Made by a program: the position numbers and the translations under genes. Shown here piece after piece: positions 4,459-62,466 of a stretch of DNA of 64,000 nucleotides. The number at the start of each line of letters is the position of its first letter. Positions within the stretch are counted from its first letter, which is position 1. The stretch comes from Sulfurimonas sp. (GTDB taxonomy: Bacteria > Campylobacterota > Campylobacteria > Campylobacterales > Sulfurimonadaceae): contig JAABQD010000002.1 of assembly GCA_011391635.1 (NCBI GenBank), forward strand, positions 1 to 64,000. The letters run 5' to 3'. The notes under the pieces were generated by a model. It saw only the letters and a program-made list of their open reading frames with translations, was not told where the DNA came from and did no database searches.

Positions 4459-5355
4459 CTATCTCGAAAAACTAAATCCTATTGAGGCTTTGTGTATCTC
4501 ATTATTATAATCAATCAAACTCTCGCCATACCCACTAAATACTTTCGTATAAAGGTAAGCACTTTGAAGAAGTGGATAGGAGTAACTCCCCTCTACAGCT
4601 CCATGCCCCTTGGAAGGATTACCTCTCCCCATAAGAGTGTACATGTGTTTACCAGAAAAATAGCTGAGTTTAAGTTCTCCATATCCATAATAGTCCATTA
4701 TATCAGGATTATCATCTTTGTCAGGATTTTCTGGAAGTCTTGACATAAGTGTCCAATCACTCAAAAGTGTTCCATGTTGCAATCGTAGAGTTGTGTAAAC
4801 ATAATTTAAACTTCGTGAACGATTACCAAGATTATCAGCTGGATTACTATAGACAACCTCACGATTACTTCCTTGACCATTGGATTTATGTGCAAGTGCT
4901 ATTTTAATAGATTTTAGGTTAATAATATCATCTTCTACCGGAAACTCAATAAACCCTTCTGGATTATAGTTTGTCTCTCGAAATGGTGAAGATTCCGTAT
5001 AAGTCTGCCAAAATGCATCATGCGAATAAGAGAGATAATATCGCTCTTTGAGACCTAAAAGATTATTTCCAACATTGAGCTTGAGACTCACTTGAAGTTC
5101 CGCTTCCGCATTCATATATTTGTCTGTTGGCGTATAGGAGCGATATACTTTTGTAGAATACCCATAAGGAAGGAGATAATTTACCCTGTAGGGCTGCAAT
5201 CCAAAGAGACCTGAGAGCCAATTATCCATAGAGTGTTTAGAATCTATCTCTTCTGTAATTTCAAACTCCTGATTCGAAGTTTCATTATTTTGACTTGGCA
5301 TATCATTTGCAAAAAGTGTCGCACCAAAAAGCAGTACCCATAAAAACTGTTTCAT
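4459..5355 (-). CDS. pldA: Outer-membrane phospholipase A (OMPLA)
   Basis: Outer-membrane phospholipase that hydrolyses acyl chains of phospholipids reaching the outer leaflet. A signal peptide (MKQFLWVLLFGATLFA) is followed by a mature beta-rich protein. The active-site block AHKSNGQGSNRE carries the His-x-Ser-Asn-Gly arrangement typical of OMPLA, and a downstream N-R-S-R-S-x-N run follows as in the family. The C-terminus SIGFSFSR ends near a barrel-type aromatic signature. Length, 298 residues, fits. It sits between the hydrogenase genes and recR on the same strand, with a 10-base gap to recR. The precursor has an acidic, Asn/Glu-rich stretch after the signal peptide. Confidence 0.9.
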   Translation of the reverse strand: MKQFLWVLLFGATLFANDMPSQNNETSNQEFEITEEIDSKHSMDNWLSGLFGLQPYRVNYLLPYGYSTKVYRSYTPTDKYMNAEAELQVSLKLNVGNNLLGLKERYYLSYSHDAFWQTYTESSPFRETNYNPEGFIEFPVEDDIINLKSIKIALAHKSNGQGSNREVVYSNPADNLGNRSRSLNYVYTTLRLQHGTLLSDWTLMSRLPENPDKDDNPDIMDYYGYGELKLSYFSGKHMYTLMGRGNPSKGHGAVEGSYSYPLLQSAYLYTKVFSGYGESLIDYNNEIHKASIGFSFSR

Positions 5356-39931: not shown

Positions 39932-41356
39932 TTAGCCTAGTTTCGCTTTTAAGAGTTCATTCACAGTTTGCGGATTCGCACTCCCTTTGGACTCTTTCAT
40001 AACCTGCCCTACAAAGAAGCCAAAAAGTTTATCTTTTCCACTTCTGTACTCCTCAGCTTTATCCCCATTTGCAGCGATAACAGCATCACAAATCGCTTCA
40101 ATCGCACCTGTGTCGCTTACTTGTTTGAGTCCTAGTTTCTCGATAACGCTATCGACATCCGTATCATTTTCCATCAAATAATCAAGGACATCTTTTGCCG
40201 CTTTTCCACTGATTGTGCCATCTTCGATGCGTTTGACTAAAAAGCCAAGCTTCTGTGCATCCACTGGCGAATTTGAGATATTCATCTCACCTTTGAGACG
40301 CCCTTGAAGTTCAGTCGTGAGCCATGTTAAAGCATTTTTAGCACTGATTCCACATGCCATCATCGCTTCAAAAAAGTGTGCCATCTCTACTGAAGAGGTA
40401 AGAACACTCGCACTGTACTCATTCATGCCATACTCGCTTACAAATCGAGCCATTTTTTGGTCTGGAAGCTCAGGAATCACGCTAAATTGCTCCAACATCG
40501 CATCAGTAACTACAGCTTTAAGTAAATCCGGCTCTGGAAAATAGCGATAATCCGCCGCTTCCTCTTTTCCACGCATAGAACGCGTTTCTTGTTTAGTTTG
40601 GTCAAAAAGTCTCGTTTCTTGAACTATCTCTTTATCGTACACACCATCTTCCCACGCTTCACACTGACGAGCTACTTCAAGCTCGATAGCTTTTTGGATG
40701 AACTTAAAGGAGTTGATATTTTTTATCTCTACACGCGTATAAAGTTTTTCATCCCCTTTTGGACGGATAGAGACATTCACATCCACACGGAATGAACCCT
40801 CTTGCATATTTGCATCGCCGATATCAAGATAACGGATGATAGAGTGAAGTTTTTTGAGGTACAAAATCGCCTCATCCGCACTTCGCATATCAGGCTCAGA
40901 AACTATCTCCAAAAGAGGTGTTCCAGCACGGTTTAAATCCACTTTGGAGATATCGCCATCATGGATATTTTTTCCCGCATCCGCCTCAATGTGTGCACGA
41001 TTAATACGGATAGTTTTATGTGAACCATCTTCAAAATCGATACGAAGTTTTCCATGCTCCACTATCGGAGTATAAAGCTGAGTGATTTGATATGCCGATG
41101 GGCTATCAGGATAGAAGTAAGACTTTCTATCAAAATAAGATGTTTGATTGATTGTCGCTTCAATTGCACGACCAAGCATAATAGATTTGTGTAAAACTTC
41201 TTTATTGAGAACAGGCAAAGCCCCTGGAAGAGCTAAACAAGTCGGACAAGTATTTGTATTTTGTTTGTGATTAAAACTCGTAGCACACGAGCAAAAAAGT
41301 TTAGTTTTTGTATTGAGTTGCACATGGACTTCAAGTCCTATAACTGTTTCAAACAT
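39932..41356 (-). CDS. gatB: Asp/Glu-tRNA(Asn/Gln) amidotransferase subunit B
   Basis: Subunit of the GatCAB complex that converts Glu-tRNA(Gln) and Asp-tRNA(Asn). The N-terminus [22 protein letters not shown], a zinc motif with [24 protein letters not shown] and [10 protein letters not shown] are diagnostic. The YqeY-like C-terminal tail domain is present. Length 474 is standard. A dispersed motif is at 40350. Confidence 0.97.
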
Positions 41357-41447
41357 AAGTTTCCTTGAATTAAAATTTATAATATAAGAGGTGGATTCTA
41401 TCTAATTAAAGCTTTCAACTCTCATAAGTAGATGTTCAGTTTTATAT

Positions 41448-44400
41448 TCACAGTCTATTTTTAAAAACTATTTTACAAAGTGAATGACGAATGTTTTTAC
41501 TATTTTGTGAATCATACCAAACAACAACATATTTAAGTGTAACTCCATCGACAACATAACCATTAACAAACTTTTCTTCTAGTTTTTCCTGAAAAGATGC
41601 TGAAAATGTAGATATTATCCTCCCCTTATGAACTATACAATAGTTTTTAAAATTAGGTCGCTTCTCTATCTGCAATTCATCTGAAGCAATAAAATCATTA
41701 TTTTTATAATGTCTATCAACATCAAAGCCAAGACTAATGTCAGACAAACTCATCTCATGTGTAAAAATTTTGTTTTCTAAAAGATAATTTTTCGTATATA
41801 AAAAATATTTTGCATACGGTTTTTTATTTTTTAGCTCATTCCCAACTCTTAAAATATGAAGTTCATTTTTTGCTCTGGTCATGCCAACATAATATAATCT
41901 TTTTTTCTCATCAGATGATGGATTCTCACTCACCAAAAGAAAAACTTTATCAAACTCCATCCCTTTAGATTTATGGATTGTTGACACAATTATACTTTTG
42001 TGATAACTTTGAAAATCTTCTAACTTAATCTCATAGATATAAGATTCCCACTGTGAAATATAATAAGTTTCACTTTCACTCAAAAACTTCTCTATTATTT
42101 TTTCCAAAAGTTTTAAATTTGATGACTTTTTATATCTATCTTGTATGATTTTAAGTGCATCATTAAAATACTTTTCTTTATACGAATTCTCATCTAGTAA
42201 AAAACTATTGAGTACATGACCAAATTCGACAAGTTCTACAATATTTTTTAACTCAAATTTTTCTCTTTCTATAATATATTTAGCTTCAATACCATTTTCT
42301 ATAAGTAGTGAGTATATCTGCATTACCTCATCATTTGTGTATGTAAGTATCGCTATATTTTCATATATTTCTTCTTGTTTTATTAAATCTATTACAGCAG
42401 GAACTAAACTTTGAGCATATGGGTATGAGTGAACTTCAACACTACCGCGTTTTGATGAATTAGCGTAAAGCTTGTGTGTTTTATATCTTTTTTTTATCAT
42501 GCCAGCGAAATCATTGGAGTACTCAACTATATCCGTATTACTCCTAAAATTACATAGCAGTTCATACTGTTTAAAAGACATCTCGTTCTCTTCGTTTTGA
42601 GCGAATTCTTCTCTAAATTTATCTATATATGTAACACTTGCACCTGCATGCTCATTGATGCACTGATCATCATCTCCAACAGCAATAATCTTCAACTCTT
42701 CATTACTAGCTTTATATATAGCTTTTAGAAGTTCAAAACTATTTTCATTTACATCTTGAAACTCATCCAAAACGAGGACGGTGATATGTGGAAGAGCTAT
42801 ATCTCCATCATTTATCTGCTTTGTTGCCTCTTCTATAGCTTTATTTAATATATCCTCATCGCCGTTTTTTGCTACTCGAGCTATCAGCTTTAAAGCAAAA
42901 GAGTGAAATGTTTGAATCTCTATGTCATACGATAATGCACCTATTAGATTATTTAATCTACTTTTAAACTCCCATCTTGCTGTCTTTGAAAATGTAAGCA
43001 TCATAAATTGTTCAGGTTTTATATCTTCAGTCAATATAAGAGAAGCTATCTTATGCACTAAAACTTTTGTTTTTCCACTTCCTGGTCCTGCTAAAATCAT
43101 CATTGCTTTAGTTTTTTTATCTTCTATTATCTCTCTTTGCTCGTCTGACATCTCTTCAAAAAGTTTCTTAAACCTTTTTTTTGTTATAGGTTGAGAAAGT
43201 TGCTCTTTTAAAAGATTATATTGTTTTTTAAATTTGTCATAAGGCAATGTAAAATAATCTTTTAAAAAAAGTATCGCTTTATAGTCATCATTTTGCAATC
43301 TTTTTGCATACTCTCCCATAATATGGATAGATTCTATCTTTGTTTTGTAATGCTCCGCTAATCTATTTTTATATTCAACTAATGTATATTTTTTATTGCC
43401 TGATGCTTTTTCTTCCTTATAAATACTCATAGGGGAATAACTAATAAATCTGCCATTTAAAAGCTCTAAAATATTTAGATGATGAAGATATAACAAAGTT
43501 CTATCTATCTCTTTAATAGATATTTTTTTGTCTAATTTATCGTATAAGTCTTTTAAAGAAAATTCTATTGTCTCTTTTTTTCTAGGTTCAATATTATCTG
43601 TAAAAATAGCTATAAGCTTATTTGCTATTGTGTGCTTGGTCAATATTAATTCTTTAATGTTATTACTATTTTCAAATTTAAAATACCACAAGTTTTGTTC
43701 TCTATTTGTTCTTTTAAACATAAAATTAGATTTATCTTTCCAGTTTTTTATTATTGATTTTATTAACTCAATACTGTTTTTAGTTATAACTTTTTTGCTA
43801 TGAAGATATTCATTCAACTCTCGCATAGATATTTGTGAGTTCATTAGAGAATCCATATAATCAAAGAGCAAGAGTTCTATAGTCTGCACATTTTTAAATT
43901 CATTTACAGCTGTTTTATCTATTTCCAAACTTAAATCTTTACTATTTCCTAAAATATTCATCTCTTTTAGTTGATTAATACTCAGTGAAATATCATGCTT
44001 TTCATATCCAAGTATGTATGCGAGTTCATCTACTTGTATTGATTTTATCTTACCTCTTCCTATAATACTTTGTAAAACTAATGTCAATTTTTGTTTTTCT
44101 TCACTGTTATAACTAGAGTTATTTAAATTTTTGTGAAACTCTTCCATACAATTAGAAGCGATAGAGTCAGCAAAAAAGTTTGTTTTATTCCTCTTTCTGC
44201 TTATATACTTTTCTCTCTCTAACTCAAGCAAAATGGTCTTTACCTTTGTACTATAATCCAAAGAGCTGTCTTCTACATCCCAACCTGCTTCTTTTGCTAA
44301 CTCAAAAGCTGTTTTATTTACTACATTATTTTTTGAATTTTTTATAACTCTTAGTATAGAATTAATCTCACTAGCAGTAAGTTTAGAACGATTTAAAGAG

Positions 44401-46289
44401 ATAAAATGTTTATCTAAATCATTTTCATCAAAAAGTATTGGGCAGTAAGCGTTTAGGTCTTTATTTCTAGCACCTCTTCCCGCTTCTTGTGCATAACTTT
44501 CTAGAGAATCAGATACCTCATAATGTATGACATTCATAATATTTGATTTATCTACCCCCATGCCAAACGCTGTAGTCGCTACTATAATGTCAATCTTGTC
44601 CTCTAAATAATCCTTAAGTATATTCATCTTCTCTCCAGATTCTATCTTAGAGTGAAATGATTTGACATTTTTTTCTGTATCTAGTGATAACTGTTCAGCA
44701 ATTTTATCGCACTCTTTTGTAGATGATGGAATATATATTAATGTTGAACCATCATGTTCATTTAGTATTTGTAATAAATCTTTATATTTATTTTTGCTTT
44801 GAGATTCTATAGATTTATATGTTAAATTTTTTCTCTCTGGAACTGCAAAATACTTATCAAGTTTTATGTCTAAACCATCTAAAAAAAACTTCTCAATATC
44901 ATCTATAACACTAGGTTTAGCTGTTGCTGTAAAACAAGATATAGGAATACTGTCTTGAAAAGGCTTAGCCTCTATAAGTTCCTTGATATATTCACAAATA
45001 TAGTAATAATCTTGTCTAAAATCATTCCCCCAAGTAGATAAGCAGTGTACTTCATCTATAACAAATCTTTCTATTAGTCTATTTTTTAAAATTGCAAAAA
45101 TTGAGTTCGAACGAAGAGATTCAGGAGCAATATATAAAATATCCGCTTCTCCATTTATAACAAGTTCTATAGCTTCACTTCGTTCTAGGGGGCTTAAAAA
45201 TCCACTTATAGCGACTGCTTTATAGTTAGCAACATTAGCATTAAAACTCTTTATATGGTCCTCTATCAGTGCTTGAAGAGGAGAGATAACAACTGTGAGA
45301 GATTTATAAGAAGAAGATTTATAAATTGCTGGTAACCAAAAAGTAAATGTTTTACCTCCACCTGTTGGTAATATGCACAAAAAGGAATCATCTCGTAATG
45401 AAGCTTCTACTATCTCCCTTTGAGAAATAGTAGGACTATCAAGAATACTAGCATTTAATCTAGGAAATTCATTAAATTCATCAAATCCAAATACTTCCTT
45501 TGAAAACTCACTTAAATTATCATTCGCTATATCAATATCAAAGCATAACTTTTTTTGGATATTGACTATATTTGGATAATCAAACAGTACTTTTGGTGGA
45601 TGTGATTTTATCTCAATATGTGGCGTTAATAAAGCAAGTATATATACTAATTCTACAGGATTAGATTCAATTAGTTCTTTTAAATAATCTTTATTTACAA
45701 TTCTCTTTTGATGTGTATCTAAAATCAAATCATATATATTTATTTTTTCTAAAATAGATAGTTTTAAACTCTTTGTTAGATATATGAAAAAACCCTTAAA
45801 ATACAATTCATCCTTGAGTAGTGAATAAAATAAATTTTGAGTATCAGATTCTAAAGACTTAAACTTATCTTCGAGTTTCATAAAAAGTTTCAAAGTAATT
45901 ATAGAATCTTCTACTGGATTATTTTTAAAATCATCTTCACTTTTGTAATTCTTTGGTAAGCTATGGTGAGTTTTTTCATTAAACAATAACAAAGACAAGG
46001 GTAAAGTATCTATAATATTGTACTTTTCAAGATAGTTACTTAATGAAGTATCTTTTAATTTTTCTAAATCAAAATTGATAAAATTATGCCCTGCTATAAA
46101 ATCTGATTTGATAGAAGATATAAAATCTATACTTTGAGAAATAGAAGATGTTCTAAGCTCTCTATCTTTATAAATAAATCCTAACTCATGTATTATATTT
46201 TTAGTTTTACTTACTTCTATATCACAAAATATAATATTTGTATTTTTAGAATAATCACTTAGTAGAATGTCTATCTTCTCTGCATTCAT
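41448..46289 (-). CDS. Giant exonuclease-RecQ-UvrD fusion helicase
   Basis: 1613 residues in one uninterrupted frame. Residues 1-150 are a DEDD-type 3'-5' exonuclease fold (FCDIEVS, FIAGHNFINFDLE, PVEDS). RecQ-like helicase: Walker A PTGGGKT near 310, DEVH near 412, and motif VI region AYAQEAGRGARNKD in variant form (ESYAQEAGRGARNKD). A middle region of about 400 residues is unassigned. UvrD-like helicase: Walker A AGPGSGKT near 1065, DEFQDVNENS, GDDDQCINEH, and STIHKSKGMEFDKVF near 1440, with VGMTRAKNELHI. The C-terminal part is a small folded domain. The start codon overlaps the stop of a decayed nucleotidyltransferase (TAATG). The 4.8-kb gene is AT-rich and has no dispersed motif, which suggests acquisition. 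A role in repair or phage defence is inference. Confidence 0.92.
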   Translation of the reverse strand: MNAEKIDILLSDYSKNTNIIFCDIEVSKTKNIIHELGFIYKDRELRTSSISQSIDFISSIKSDFIAGHNFINFDLEKLKDTSLSNYLEKYNIIDTLPLSLLLFNEKTHHSLPKNYKSEDDFKNNPVEDSIITLKLFMKLEDKFKSLESDTQNLFYSLLKDELYFKGFFIYLTKSLKLSILEKINIYDLILDTHQKRIVNKDYLKELIESNPVELVYILALLTPHIEIKSHPPKVLFDYPNIVNIQKKLCFDIDIANDNLSEFSKEVFGFDEFNEFPRLNASILDSPTISQREIVEASLRDDSFLCILPTGGGKTFTFWLPAIYKSSSYKSLTVVISPLQALIEDHIKSFNANVANYKAVAISGFLSPLERSEAIELVINGEADILYIAPESLRSNSIFAILKNRLIERFVIDEVHCLSTWGNDFRQDYYYICEYIKELIEAKPFQDSIPISCFTATAKPSVIDDIEKFFLDGLDIKLDKYFAVPERKNLTYKSIESQSKNKYKDLLQILNEHDGSTLIYIPSSTKECDKIAEQLSLDTEKNVKSFHSKIESGEKMNILKDYLEDKIDIIVATTAFGMGVDKSNIMNVIHYEVSDSLESYAQEAGRGARNKDLNAYCPILFDENDLDKHFISLNRSKLTASEINSILRVIKNSKNNVVNKTAFELAKEAGWDVEDSSLDYSTKVKTILLELEREKYISRKRNKTNFFADSIASNCMEEFHKNLNNSSYNSEEKQKLTLVLQSIIGRGKIKSIQVDELAYILGYEKHDISLSINQLKEMNILGNSKDLSLEIDKTAVNEFKNVQTIELLLFDYMDSLMNSQISMRELNEYLHSKKVITKNSIELIKSIIKNWKDKSNFMFKRTNREQNLWYFKFENSNNIKELILTKHTIANKLIAIFTDNIEPRKKETIEFSLKDLYDKLDKKISIKEIDRTLLYLHHLNILELLNGRFISYSPMSIYKEEKASGNKKYTLVEYKNRLAEHYKTKIESIHIMGEYAKRLQNDDYKAILFLKDYFTLPYDKFKKQYNLLKEQLSQPITKKRFKKLFEEMSDEQREIIEDKKTKAMMILAGPGSGKTKVLVHKIASLILTEDIKPEQFMMLTFSKTARWEFKSRLNNLIGALSYDIEIQTFHSFALKLIARVAKNGDEDILNKAIEEATKQINDGDIALPHITVLVLDEFQDVNENSFELLKAIYKASNEELKIIAVGDDDQCINEHAGASVTYIDKFREEFAQNEENEMSFKQYELLCNFRSNTDIVEYSNDFAGMIKKRYKTHKLYANSSKRGSVEVHSYPYAQSLVPAVIDLIKQEEIYENIAILTYTNDEVMQIYSLLIENGIEAKYIIEREKFELKNIVELVEFGHVLNSFLLDENSYKEKYFNDALKIIQDRYKKSSNLKLLEKIIEKFLSESETYYISQWESYIYEIKLEDFQSYHKSIIVSTIHKSKGMEFDKVFLLVSENPSSDEKKRLYYVGMTRAKNELHILRVGNELKNKKPYAKYFLYTKNYLLENKIFTHEMSLSDISLGFDVDRHYKNNDFIASDELQIEKRPNFKNYCIVHKGRIISTFSASFQEKLEEKFVNGYVVDGVTLKYVVVWYDSQNSKNIRHSLCKIVFKNRL

Positions 46290-46465
46290 TAAATTAAATT
46301 TCTATTTATATAGGTTTTTAAAGTACTATATATTTTATATAAATCTATATTGCCACTTTTTTTTGTATCATCGACCCTACTTCCAAACAGATAAAGCTTG
46401 GCATGTGGAAAGAAGGAAGTAAAGTGTTTTATAATAGTGTTTTGTTCAAATTCTGTTAGTCTCAT
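46289..46465 (-). pseudogene. Truncated MNT-type nucleotidyltransferase
   Basis: A 58-codon frame beginning MRLTEFEQNTIIKHF. LYLFGSRVDDTKKSGNIDL resembles the GSx(n)DxD active site of minimal nucleotidyltransferases, but the first Asp of GDIDL has become Asn, and the protein ends soon after, about half the usual length. Its stop overlaps the helicase ATG. It looks like the head of an MntA-like antitoxin gene cut off by insertion of the helicase. The dispersed motif lies within it at 46400. Confidence 0.65.
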
Positions 46466-46501
46466 GCAACGATTCTACATAAAATTTAATTATATAAAGC
46501 T

Positions 46502-46514
46502 TTGGCATGTGGAA
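46502..46514. repeat. Dispersed-motif copy just downstream of the 46520 gene
   Basis: A full 13-base copy, TTGGCATGTGGAA, in the gap after the minus-strand gene ending at 46520 and before the nucleotidyltransferase remnant. It is unpaired here, although another copy in the same orientation lies about 100 bases to the left at 46398-46410. Confidence 0.8.
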
Positions 46515-46519
46515 CTTTT

Positions 46520-46912
46520 TTACTCTTCATCTATGAGTATCACTTTAATATTGTATATTTTTGCGACTGCGTTCAGTCTGCTTATAAACTTCTCATCTCC
46601 TGCTCCTGCGATAAGCCCGACAGCTGGTTTTTTACCGCTCATCTGTGCGTAGTAGAGAGCTTGACCAATTCCTTCCGCCCATTTTTTGGCAAAATCTACT
46701 TCGATTGCGTACTCTGAGGTAAGGCAGTCGATTCTGGCTTTGTCTTCTAGGACAACTTCCATCGTACCGCCGAGTGCATTGCACATTTTGGTCTGGTAAT
46801 ATTTTTCATTGTGGTTTGCAATAGAGAGTTTTTGGGATGTGATATCCTCTTCAAAAAGAAAGTAAAACAGAGCGACAATAAGGGAAAATAGAATGGAAAC
46901 TATTTTTTTCAT
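46520..46912 (-). CDS. Exported or membrane-tethered protein with PD-(D/E)XK-like core
   Basis: 130 residues. One N-terminal hydrophobic segment (IVSILFSLIVALFYFLF) is followed by a compact domain with E52, D62, E71, D73 and K76 in ARIDCLTSEYAIEVDFAKKW and a helix IGQALYYAQ. This order (D, then ExD and K, then Gln) resembles restriction-endonuclease-like folds. If so, it is an unusual periplasmic nuclease or nuclease-like protein. It lies 5 bases after the 46918 gene. Confidence 0.7.
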   Translation of the reverse strand: MKKIVSILFSLIVALFYFLFEEDITSQKLSIANHNEKYYQTKMCNALGGTMEVVLEDKARIDCLTSEYAIEVDFAKKWAEGIGQALYYAQMSGKKPAVGLIAGAGDEKFISRLNAVAKIYNIKVILIDEE

Positions 46913-46917
46913 TGATA

Positions 46918-47181
46918 CTATTTTGTATGTTTGGAGTAAATTTTTTCCAAAAGTTTAGTCTGTTTTTGAGCCTCTTCTAATCGTTTTTTATTGACAGCAA
47001 AAGCATCCAATGTCAAAATAAGAAAGAGTGAAACTACGATAAAAAGAATGGTTATAAAAAGAGAGAAACTAACGCCAAAAGGGAGAAAAATATTGAAAGT
47101 TATCAAAGCACCAAAAAGGACAACCGCCCATGATGCTCCAAGCAAAAAGCTTATAATTCTCTCGAATATATCTTTTTGCAT
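46918..47181 (-). CDS. Two-helix membrane protein with coiled-coil tail
   Basis: 87 residues with two transmembrane helices (about 10-30 and 37-60) and a basic helical C-terminus (NKKRLEEAQKQTKLLEKIY). The family was not recognised. It lies 9 bases downstream of atpB and 5 bases upstream of the PD-(D/E)XK-like gene, so it is probably co-transcribed with both. Confidence 0.7.
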   Translation of the reverse strand: MQKDIFERIISFLLGASWAVVLFGALITFNIFLPFGVSFSLFITILFIVVSLFLILTLDAFAVNKKRLEEAQKQTKLLEKIYSKHTK

Positions 47182-47190
47182 GTGCGATAA

Positions 47191-47865
47191 TTAGTGTTCG
47201 TCAACAGCGATTGCACCACCAAGGTACACATAAGTAAGCATCATAAAGATGAACGCTTGTAAGAATGCCATAAAAGTAAGAAGAGCAAATGGAATCATTG
47301 GTAAAAGCCATGGAGCAAGCATAAGGATTACCATTAAGAACATATCATCCCCTTTTACATTTCCAAAAAGACGGAAGCTCAAAGAGATCAAACGAGAAAA
47401 GTGAGAAACGATTTCGATTGGGAACATCAACCAATATAACCACCAAACAGGTCCTAAAAAGTGTTTAAAATACTTCACAACACCCTGACGACGGATACCC
47501 TCATAGTTATAGTAAACAAATACAGACAAAGCAAGTGTAAGAGGCATCTCCAAAAATGCGGTCGGAGCTTCAAAACCTGGAATTACACCGATTAAGTTTG
47601 CGATTCCTACAAAAAGACCGATTGTCGCAACAAGTGGAAGATAACGACGCGCTGGTTCTTGACCCATAACATCTGTTCCCATTTTAAGAACACCTGAAAT
47701 GTATGCTTCCATCACATTTTGCGTTCCTCTTGGAACGATTTGAAGGTTTGACATAGCTATTTTAACAAGCATCAAAGCGATACCAGCAGATAGTAACATG
47801 TGTGTTACATAAATAAAAGTTTTATCGTGAGAAATTACCCCGAAAAAAGTAAACAATTCACCCAT
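47191..47865 (-). CDS. atpB: ATP synthase F0 subunit a
   Basis: Stator subunit that forms the proton half-channels. [14 protein letters not shown] carries the essential Arg, and [20 protein letters not shown] is the conserved last helix. At 224 residues it is typical for Campylobacterota, in which atpB is commonly separate from the main atp operon; no other atp gene is here. The 85 bases upstream (47866-47950) are AT-rich and should hold its promoter. Confidence 0.97.
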
Positions 47866-62419: not shown

Positions 62420-62466
62420 TTGGCATGTGGAATTATTGGCATGTGGAAATAGTTTGGCATGTGGAG
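62420..62466. repeat. Three direct copies of the dispersed motif
   Basis: TTGGCATGTGGAA at 62420-62432 and 62436-62448 and TTGGCATGTGGAG at 62454-62466, in the same orientation, 16 and 18 bases apart. They fill much of the gap between cytochrome c peroxidase and the SNF2 gene. Direct orientation rules out a simple hairpin. Confidence 0.85.

Follow-up and report, generated by a model that had tools for sequence, protein, structure and literature searches.

A putative exported PD-(D/E)XK-fold nuclease at the Sulfurimonas atpB locus and its unnamed, phage-borne family

The open reading frame that occupies exactly positions 46520-46912 on the minus strand of the window (the whole 64,000-nucleotide stretch of Sulfurimonas sp. 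contig JAABQD010000002.1 analysed here) starts with ATG and encodes a protein of 130 amino acids that is very probably exported and built on a nuclease fold. The protein is probably also catalytically active, and the chance that it acts chiefly on incoming phage DNA is judged to lie slightly below even. The reading proposed here, an envelope-side nuclease directed against incoming, chiefly phage, DNA and domesticated from prophages, is put forward with the same reserve and draws on export, the fold, an intact active site and carriage by phages. There is support for export, for the fold and for the association with phages, and we infer DNA cleavage and protection against phages. The fold itself is ordinary; its place in the cell is unusual, and the family is phage-borne and unnamed.

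Gene, predicted fold and active site

The reading frame is real rather than a product of chance, since relatives are widespread and purifying selection acts on the core, with dN/dS values of 0.03-0.07 in the seven of ten close pairs with finite dS; these values are rough because dS is near saturation. The N-terminus evolves more loosely than the core (dN/dS 0.10-0.51). The gene is single-copy in the genome of the window (2,345,822 bases, 84 contigs). Directly upstream, across a gap of 5 bases, lies a gene for an 87-residue membrane protein (46918..47181, minus strand), and further upstream in the same direction are atpB, encoding F-type ATP synthase subunit a (47191..47865, minus strand), and truD. 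Because of the short gap and the shared direction, the gene would probably be co-transcribed with all three.

Searches of the window protein against Pfam, PHROGs, NCBIfam and PDB sequences gave nothing convincing, the best chance-level matches being KaiA_N (E 0.054), phrog_2682 (E 0.011) and an MreC model (E 0.028). When 92 members or their profile were compared with Pfam, PHROGs, PADLOC and PDB, only stray matches of one or two members each appeared; those to phrog_5928 (two members) and to an Rz-like spanin model (one member) are read as signal-peptide matches. The absence from PADLOC counts against the proposed reading. Literature searches found no paper describing the family, though one may exist. 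The family is unnamed and has no entry in any of the family libraries that were searched.

The structure predicted by AlphaFold2 from a 33-row alignment has a mean pLDDT of 89.6, with values of 96-99 in each ten-residue block from residue 41 and below 50 at residues 23-30. Residues 34-130 (46523..46813, minus strand) are predicted to form a restriction-endonuclease-like core in the order a-b-b-b-a-b-a-b, with helix 36-46, strands 50-54, 60-64 and 68-74, helix 75-92 and strand 95-102, followed by a further helix and strand. Foldseek against the PDB returned nothing significant, its best match (E 0.14) belonging to an unrelated fold, and this too weighs against the proposed reading. Realignment of Foldseek's 1000 best PDB chains placed NucS/EndoMS of Pyrococcus abyssi (2vld) first, with Z 10.1 and rmsd 2.2 over 89 residues at 9% identity, and AF1548 (1y88) second, with Z 8.9. 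These were followed by CdiA-CT toxins (Z 7.0 and 6.8), Cdn1 and PaqCI (Z 6.5 each), and then ERCC1, FAAP24, SfsA, EcoT38I and BglII; Z values below 8 may reflect a common arrangement, and NucS and AF1548 exceed that level. What these matches have in common, as we take it partly from their titles and partly from general knowledge, is the restriction-endonuclease-like fold. An earlier note on this DNA had proposed a nuclease-like core and named structure prediction and fold search as the check; the core is indeed present in the model, and the outcome that the note had named as refuting, a structure lacking this core, did not arise.

In BFVD, eight matches have E below 0.001, seven of them with E of about 1e-7 to 1e-4 and 20-30% identity, to giant-virus KilA-N proteins. 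These are structurally similar; they differ in being fused to, or named for, KilA-N domains and in belonging to viruses of eukaryotes. The matches hint at a link of the present family to nuclease domains of such viruses.

Conservation was read over 109 members, distinct at 95% core similarity, from 139 open reading frames collected from the loci (the window gene counted twice and some loci repeated). Motif I Glu36 (46805..46807, minus strand) is kept in 108 of the 109, the remaining one being truncated, and motif II Asp62 (46727..46729, minus strand) in all. Motif III, Glu71-Val-Asp73 with Lys77 at the start of the next helix (46682..46702, minus strand), keeps Glu71 in 109 members, Asp73 in 105 (Glu in three) and Lys77 in 108. 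In motif IV (46649..46663, minus strand), Gln84 is found in 109 and Tyr88 in 108. Furthermore, E36, D62, E71, K77, Q84 and Y88 are invariant over the 92 aligned rows. Because the scan patterns spanned E71-Q84, conservation in that stretch is partly imposed by the search, while E36, D62, Y88 and both cysteines lay outside the patterns of the viral-contig search.

The predicted element order, the motif II aspartate and the motif III acid all agree with the PD-(D/E)XK superfamily. The lysine expected two residues after the motif III acid is absent, Asp73 standing in its place, which is a further point against the proposed reading. Lys77 is apparently a relocated catalytic lysine, making the protein a candidate for the migrated-lysine variant, which is accepted within the superfamily. 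The account of DUF506 in PMC1913061 places its motif III lysine in the helix after the third strand and gives its motif III as (D/E)X(D/N/S/C/G), a pattern that the present family matches; for DUF790 and DUF1626 it describes a move of lysine or arginine. The likeness to these three families lies in the missing motif III lysine and the basic residue in that helix; the passages of PMC1913061 used here describe no export for them, and the Pfam scan shows no sequence relation.

A similar correspondence is found with NucS, whose motif residues are given in the relevant part of PMC7343888 as E127, D160, E174, K176, Q187 and Y191. In our own pairing, E127, D160, E174, Q187 and Y191 correspond to E36, D62, E71, Q84 and Y88, and the spacing E71-Q84-Y88 (13 and 4) equals that of E174-Q187-Y191; by spacing, K176 falls on Asp73, so that the catalytic lysine position is not matched. 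The window protein differs further in having only an anchor and a linker before the core instead of an N-terminal DNA-binding domain, in being exported and in showing no sequence match to NucS. Under the proposed mechanism, Glu36, Asp62 and Glu71 would bind metal, Lys77 would substitute for the usual motif III lysine, whose position is here Asp73, and Gln84 with Tyr88 would form a motif IV of the RecB/NucS type.

The family might instead be a non-catalytic relative that uses the fold to bind DNA, a phage tail protein or a host partner. The replacement of the motif III lysine by Asp73 is consistent with this, as is the presence among the structural matches of ERCC1 and FAAP24, presumably non-catalytic members of the same fold. 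The near invariance of E36, D62, E71, K77 and Q84 argues against it, and this alternative is considered distinctly unlikely.

Export, anchoring and the cysteine pair

The protein begins with MKKIVSILFSLIVALFYFLFEED, a basic-hydrophobic-acidic signal-anchor whose hydrophobic part (residues 2-19; 46856..46909, minus strand) is modelled as a helix, in agreement with the hydrophobic anchor before the core described in the earlier note. A hydrophobic export or anchor segment of this kind is found in 102 of the 109 distinct members, compared with 241 of 740 other genes of 80-200 amino acids on the same viral loci, where the cut-off was slightly stricter. An envelope location, as expected of a superinfection-exclusion protein, is thus predicted for these 102. 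Other members carry a cleavable signal peptide or a lipobox instead of a plain anchor. By eye, a lipobox is seen in about eleven (L012, L014, L016, L017, L019, L021, L022, L027, L046, L050 and L072), and the lipobox pattern flags 18, some of them by chance. L014, found at the chromosomal position of the window gene, carries a lipobox instead of the window protein's plain anchor, which indicates that anchoring is kept despite sequence change.

The segment is missing from seven members: L026, which is truncated, L059, a weak outlier, and the intact L033, L035, L090, L096 and L134. These five intact members without an export signal count against the proposed reading. The frame of L026 (4929-5318, Sulfurimonas UWMA-0129) ends at 5039 and then resumes, as would a decayed copy or an assembly error.

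Cys44 (46781..46783, minus strand) and Cys63 (46724..46726, minus strand) are both present in 103 of the 109 distinct members and both absent from five; the remaining one is truncated, and no intact member has a single cysteine of the pair. In the oxidising environment of the periplasm, the two would probably be joined by a disulfide. The pair does not strictly accompany export: of the five intact members without the segment, three (L090, L096 and L134) retain both cysteines and two (L033 and L035) have neither.

Taking into account the structure prediction and the pattern of N-termini across the family, the protein would be a small, single-domain PD-(D/E)XK-fold protein that its signal-anchor tethers to the periplasmic face of the inner membrane. 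There it would most likely cut foreign DNA in transit through the envelope, chiefly that of phages, and the cell's own chromosome would be spared since the protein sits outside the cytoplasm.

Phage carriage and the chromosomal slot

Relatives of the gene are patchy on chromosomes and frequent in phages. A search of genome contigs with the window protein as query yielded 28 loci from 139 stretches, those of close relatives bearing the label Sulfurimonas. Among whole genomes, the gene is present in 23 of 135 of the genus, in 17 of 397 of a phylum sample (9 of 68 genera) and in 4 of 369 sampled from the class to which the genome of locus L028 belongs. Eight of 50,697 phage records contain relatives, and two further queries gave the same eight: Nitratiruptor NrS-2 to NrS-5, Dulem virus 31, Salicola SCTP-2 and Rhizobium RR1-A twice. 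With the alignment as query, 245 stretches of viral contigs yielded 205 relatives, and 80 of these were retained. None of 72,556 plasmids carries a relative by either of two queries.

Among individual phages, the gene lies directly after the CI repressor in Dulem virus 31, by the repressor and early region in NrS-4 and NrS-2, and by a recombinase in RR1-A. Repressor-like genes occur within three genes of it in 21 of 75 distinct viral loci, whereas draws from the other genes of these loci give an expectation of 8.2 (none of 20,000 draws reached 21). PHROGs searches, in which one protein may match several families, point the same way. At positions -2 and -1 (144 proteins), repressor phrog_4 is matched by nine and CI-like phrog_6201 by six; at +1 and +2 (141 proteins), integrase phrog_1 is matched by nine and phrog_4 by six. 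In the control at offsets 6-7 (144 of 213 proteins, shuffled), integrase is matched by two and no repressor family stands among the 25 families matched by most members, which does not amount to true absence. Neighbour clustering places a repressor cluster in 18 of the 75 loci, upstream in 13, and an integrase cluster in nine, always at +1 or +2 and in eight cases on the same strand. A motif-filtered integrase detector found just seven, so the evidence on integrases rests on PHROGs and clustering. Collectively, the gene has a CI-type repressor or an integrase gene close by more often than expected, yet in a minority of loci: one or the other is found within four genes in 25 of the 75, and neither in 50, a figure obtained with detectors that miss many repressors and integrases. 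These 50 loci weigh against the proposed reading, and some phage loci sit amid head or terminase genes.

Clustering revealed no constant partner gene in the phages, none recurring besides repressor and integrase. At three viral loci (L067:6140-6418, L111:7666-7923 and L128:8300-8566), a short, cysteine-rich protein with a signal peptide adjoins the nuclease-fold gene and ends in RGCCSHHGGVCGC...CCDG-like repeats.

The association with the lysogeny module, present as an enrichment, would be expected of a superinfection-exclusion gene. The relevant part of PMC11437467 describes several phages in which such genes have LexA-like repressor and integrase genes on either side. For the Nitratiruptor phages, the main text of PMC9723563 contains neither the word 'superinfection' nor two searched locus tags, and protection is credited there to CI and restriction-modification. 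Temperate phages would, under the proposed mechanism, carry the gene beside repressor and integrase for superinfection exclusion. Phage fitness genes in general also sit by repressor and integrase, and this, together with export and the kept active site, would fit equally an anchored nuclease that degrades extracellular or periplasmic DNA for phosphate or nucleotides and is carried by phages as a lysogen fitness gene. No phosphate or nucleotide genes turn up among the neighbours that recur, as judged from aggregated lists of the top 25 families, and scavenging is judged unlikely.

As to the history of the chromosomal copies, a midpoint-rooted tree of 92 rows and 128 columns with many weak forks nests 13 Campylobacterota rows within phage rows as a single clade (99/96); the adjoining branch holds NrS-4 together with further viral rows. 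This points to transfer from phage to chromosome, a direction that we infer from a tree in which only some of the 'chromosomal' rows are shown to lie outside prophages. A Sulfurimonas ancestor would have taken over a phage copy, which is now kept beside atpB and the 87-residue protein gene.

The gene stands behind these two genes in 12 of the 28 genome-contig loci (L001-L011 and L014; three of the 12 are incomplete at one end). The 87-residue protein was considered as a partner of the nuclease and rejected: its gene is found in 114 of the 135 genus genomes, so it is not specific to the nuclease and serves here as a marker of the insertion site. An empty site is seen in the sibling genome G067, where 178 bases separate the 87-residue protein gene from gatB and no nuclease gene is present; in G005 the distance is 89 bases. 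Four further genomes lacking the gene carry other cargo there, the survey covering 6 of the 112 genus genomes without it.

The interval from the 87-residue protein gene to gatB (39932-41356), its far boundary, forms a variable cargo slot at 39932-47181. A defence island at this place is unsupported, since the 12 intervals read hold varied genes, and this variety counts against the proposed reading. Named by eye, the cargo includes sensory, cytochrome and riboflavin-type proteins, and in L142 a nucleotidyltransferase/HEPN-like pair whose first gene is found at the contig edge in L002. In the window, the slot beside the nuclease-fold gene is filled by a RecQ-like and UvrD-like helicase of 1613 amino acids (41448..46289, minus strand), which is not found there in the relatives' loci read. 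Its RecQ-like helicase region (residues 289-636) is joined to UvrD/PcrA-like motifs from about residue 1041, and residues 289-627 also resemble DpdF.

The chromosomal members keep all active-site residues under strong purifying selection, which would also suit a broad envelope-side DNase that acts on any incoming DNA (conjugation, transformation or phage) and serves the host as a general rather than a phage-specific barrier. Plasmids would suffer from such an enzyme, and none carries it; this absence may have other causes, the plasmid collection holding few from Campylobacterota, and the broad barrier is considered rather unlikely.

The uptake-like repeat and known envelope systems

The 12-mer TTGGCATGTGGA is a strong uptake-sequence candidate. 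One copy (46502..46513, plus strand) lies just past the stop codon of the nuclease-fold gene, another nearby at 46398-46409, and further examples at 62420-62465. The window holds 39 sites at up to one mismatch, against 0.3 expected, and the genome 357 + 375 exact copies (732), against none of the reversed control. On a rough map of open reading frames, 13 of 40 core sites in the window are intergenic, and only about 8% of it is non-coding. At least ten copies of the uptake-like 12-mer occur in 19 of the 135 genus genomes, with few or none elsewhere. Literature searches found no paper on a Sulfurimonas uptake sequence, though one may exist. The candidate uptake sequence to which the earlier note had drawn attention is thus a real repeat.

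The link that the note had drawn from this repeat to the protein is not supported. The gene is present in 6 of the 19 genomes with at least ten copies and in 17 of the 116 others (Fisher p = 0.096), and at a threshold of at least 100 copies in 2 of 11 versus 21 of 124 (p = 1.0). Repeat-rich genomes such as G031 (626 copies) and G066 (555) lack the gene, and others, for example G008 and G114, carry it with no copy of the 12-mer. Gene presence is therefore not found to track the uptake-like repeat, in a comparison where some genomes may use a different uptake sequence.

These results bear on natural transformation, in which a periplasmic nuclease would nick or trim DNA during uptake in connection with the repeat. 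The abundance of the 12-mer over its reversed control, the membrane anchor of the protein and a ComEC-family match in the genome of the window, where alone competence genes were sought, are consistent with such a role. Against it stand the failure of gene presence to follow the repeat, the lack of a frequent uptake-like word at the loci of the close relatives L001-L004 (a weak test, with 5-10 kb each), and the fact that the gene is phage-carried and missing from most genus genomes. A function in transformation is highly improbable. What survives of the note's proposal is the processing of incoming DNA, which is plausible; with so many phage carriers, often with a repressor or integrase gene nearby, the evidence favours phage DNA over transforming DNA.

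Among known proteins, EndA (endonuclease I) of E. coli is a periplasmic nuclease credited with degrading the DNA of superinfecting phages. The window protein is likewise predicted to be a periplasmic nuclease; EndA has another fold and is host-encoded. Superinfection-exclusion lipoproteins and morons such as Ltp of phage TP-J34 and gp15 of HK97, both named among the references of PMC11437467, offer a different likeness: temperate phages encode these exported or membrane-bound proteins, often between repressor and integrase. They are not known to have nuclease folds. A further parallel is SNIPE, described in the relevant part of PMC13190303 as a membrane-bound nuclease that cuts phage DNA during injection, with the nuclease facing the cytoplasm. 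Both are membrane-anchored nucleases, and the window protein is proposed to meet DNA at entry. SNIPE combines GIY-YIG and DUF4041 on the cytoplasmic side, whereas the window protein is a single-domain PD-(D/E)XK protein predicted to be periplasmic; the fold differs, and no Pfam match to GIY-YIG or DUF4041 was found among the 92 members.

The history of the gene points to phages and not to competence, which corrects the first reading of this locus. In its widest form, held slightly more tentatively still than the action on phage DNA, the proposal is that of a widespread PD-(D/E)XK family on the periplasmic face, serving temperate phages as an entry barrier, sparing self solely through where it sits, not through sequence or methylation, and domesticated repeatedly, or at least once at the Sulfurimonas atpB locus. 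The family occurs on hundreds of phage contigs, and as a single small gene it is directly testable by cloning. SNIPE is the single well-worked recent example of self/non-self discrimination by an envelope-side nuclease, and it acts on the cytoplasmic face. If the proposal is true, a second, unrelated fold on the opposite face of the membrane would widen the battleground of DNA entry beyond what has been catalogued.
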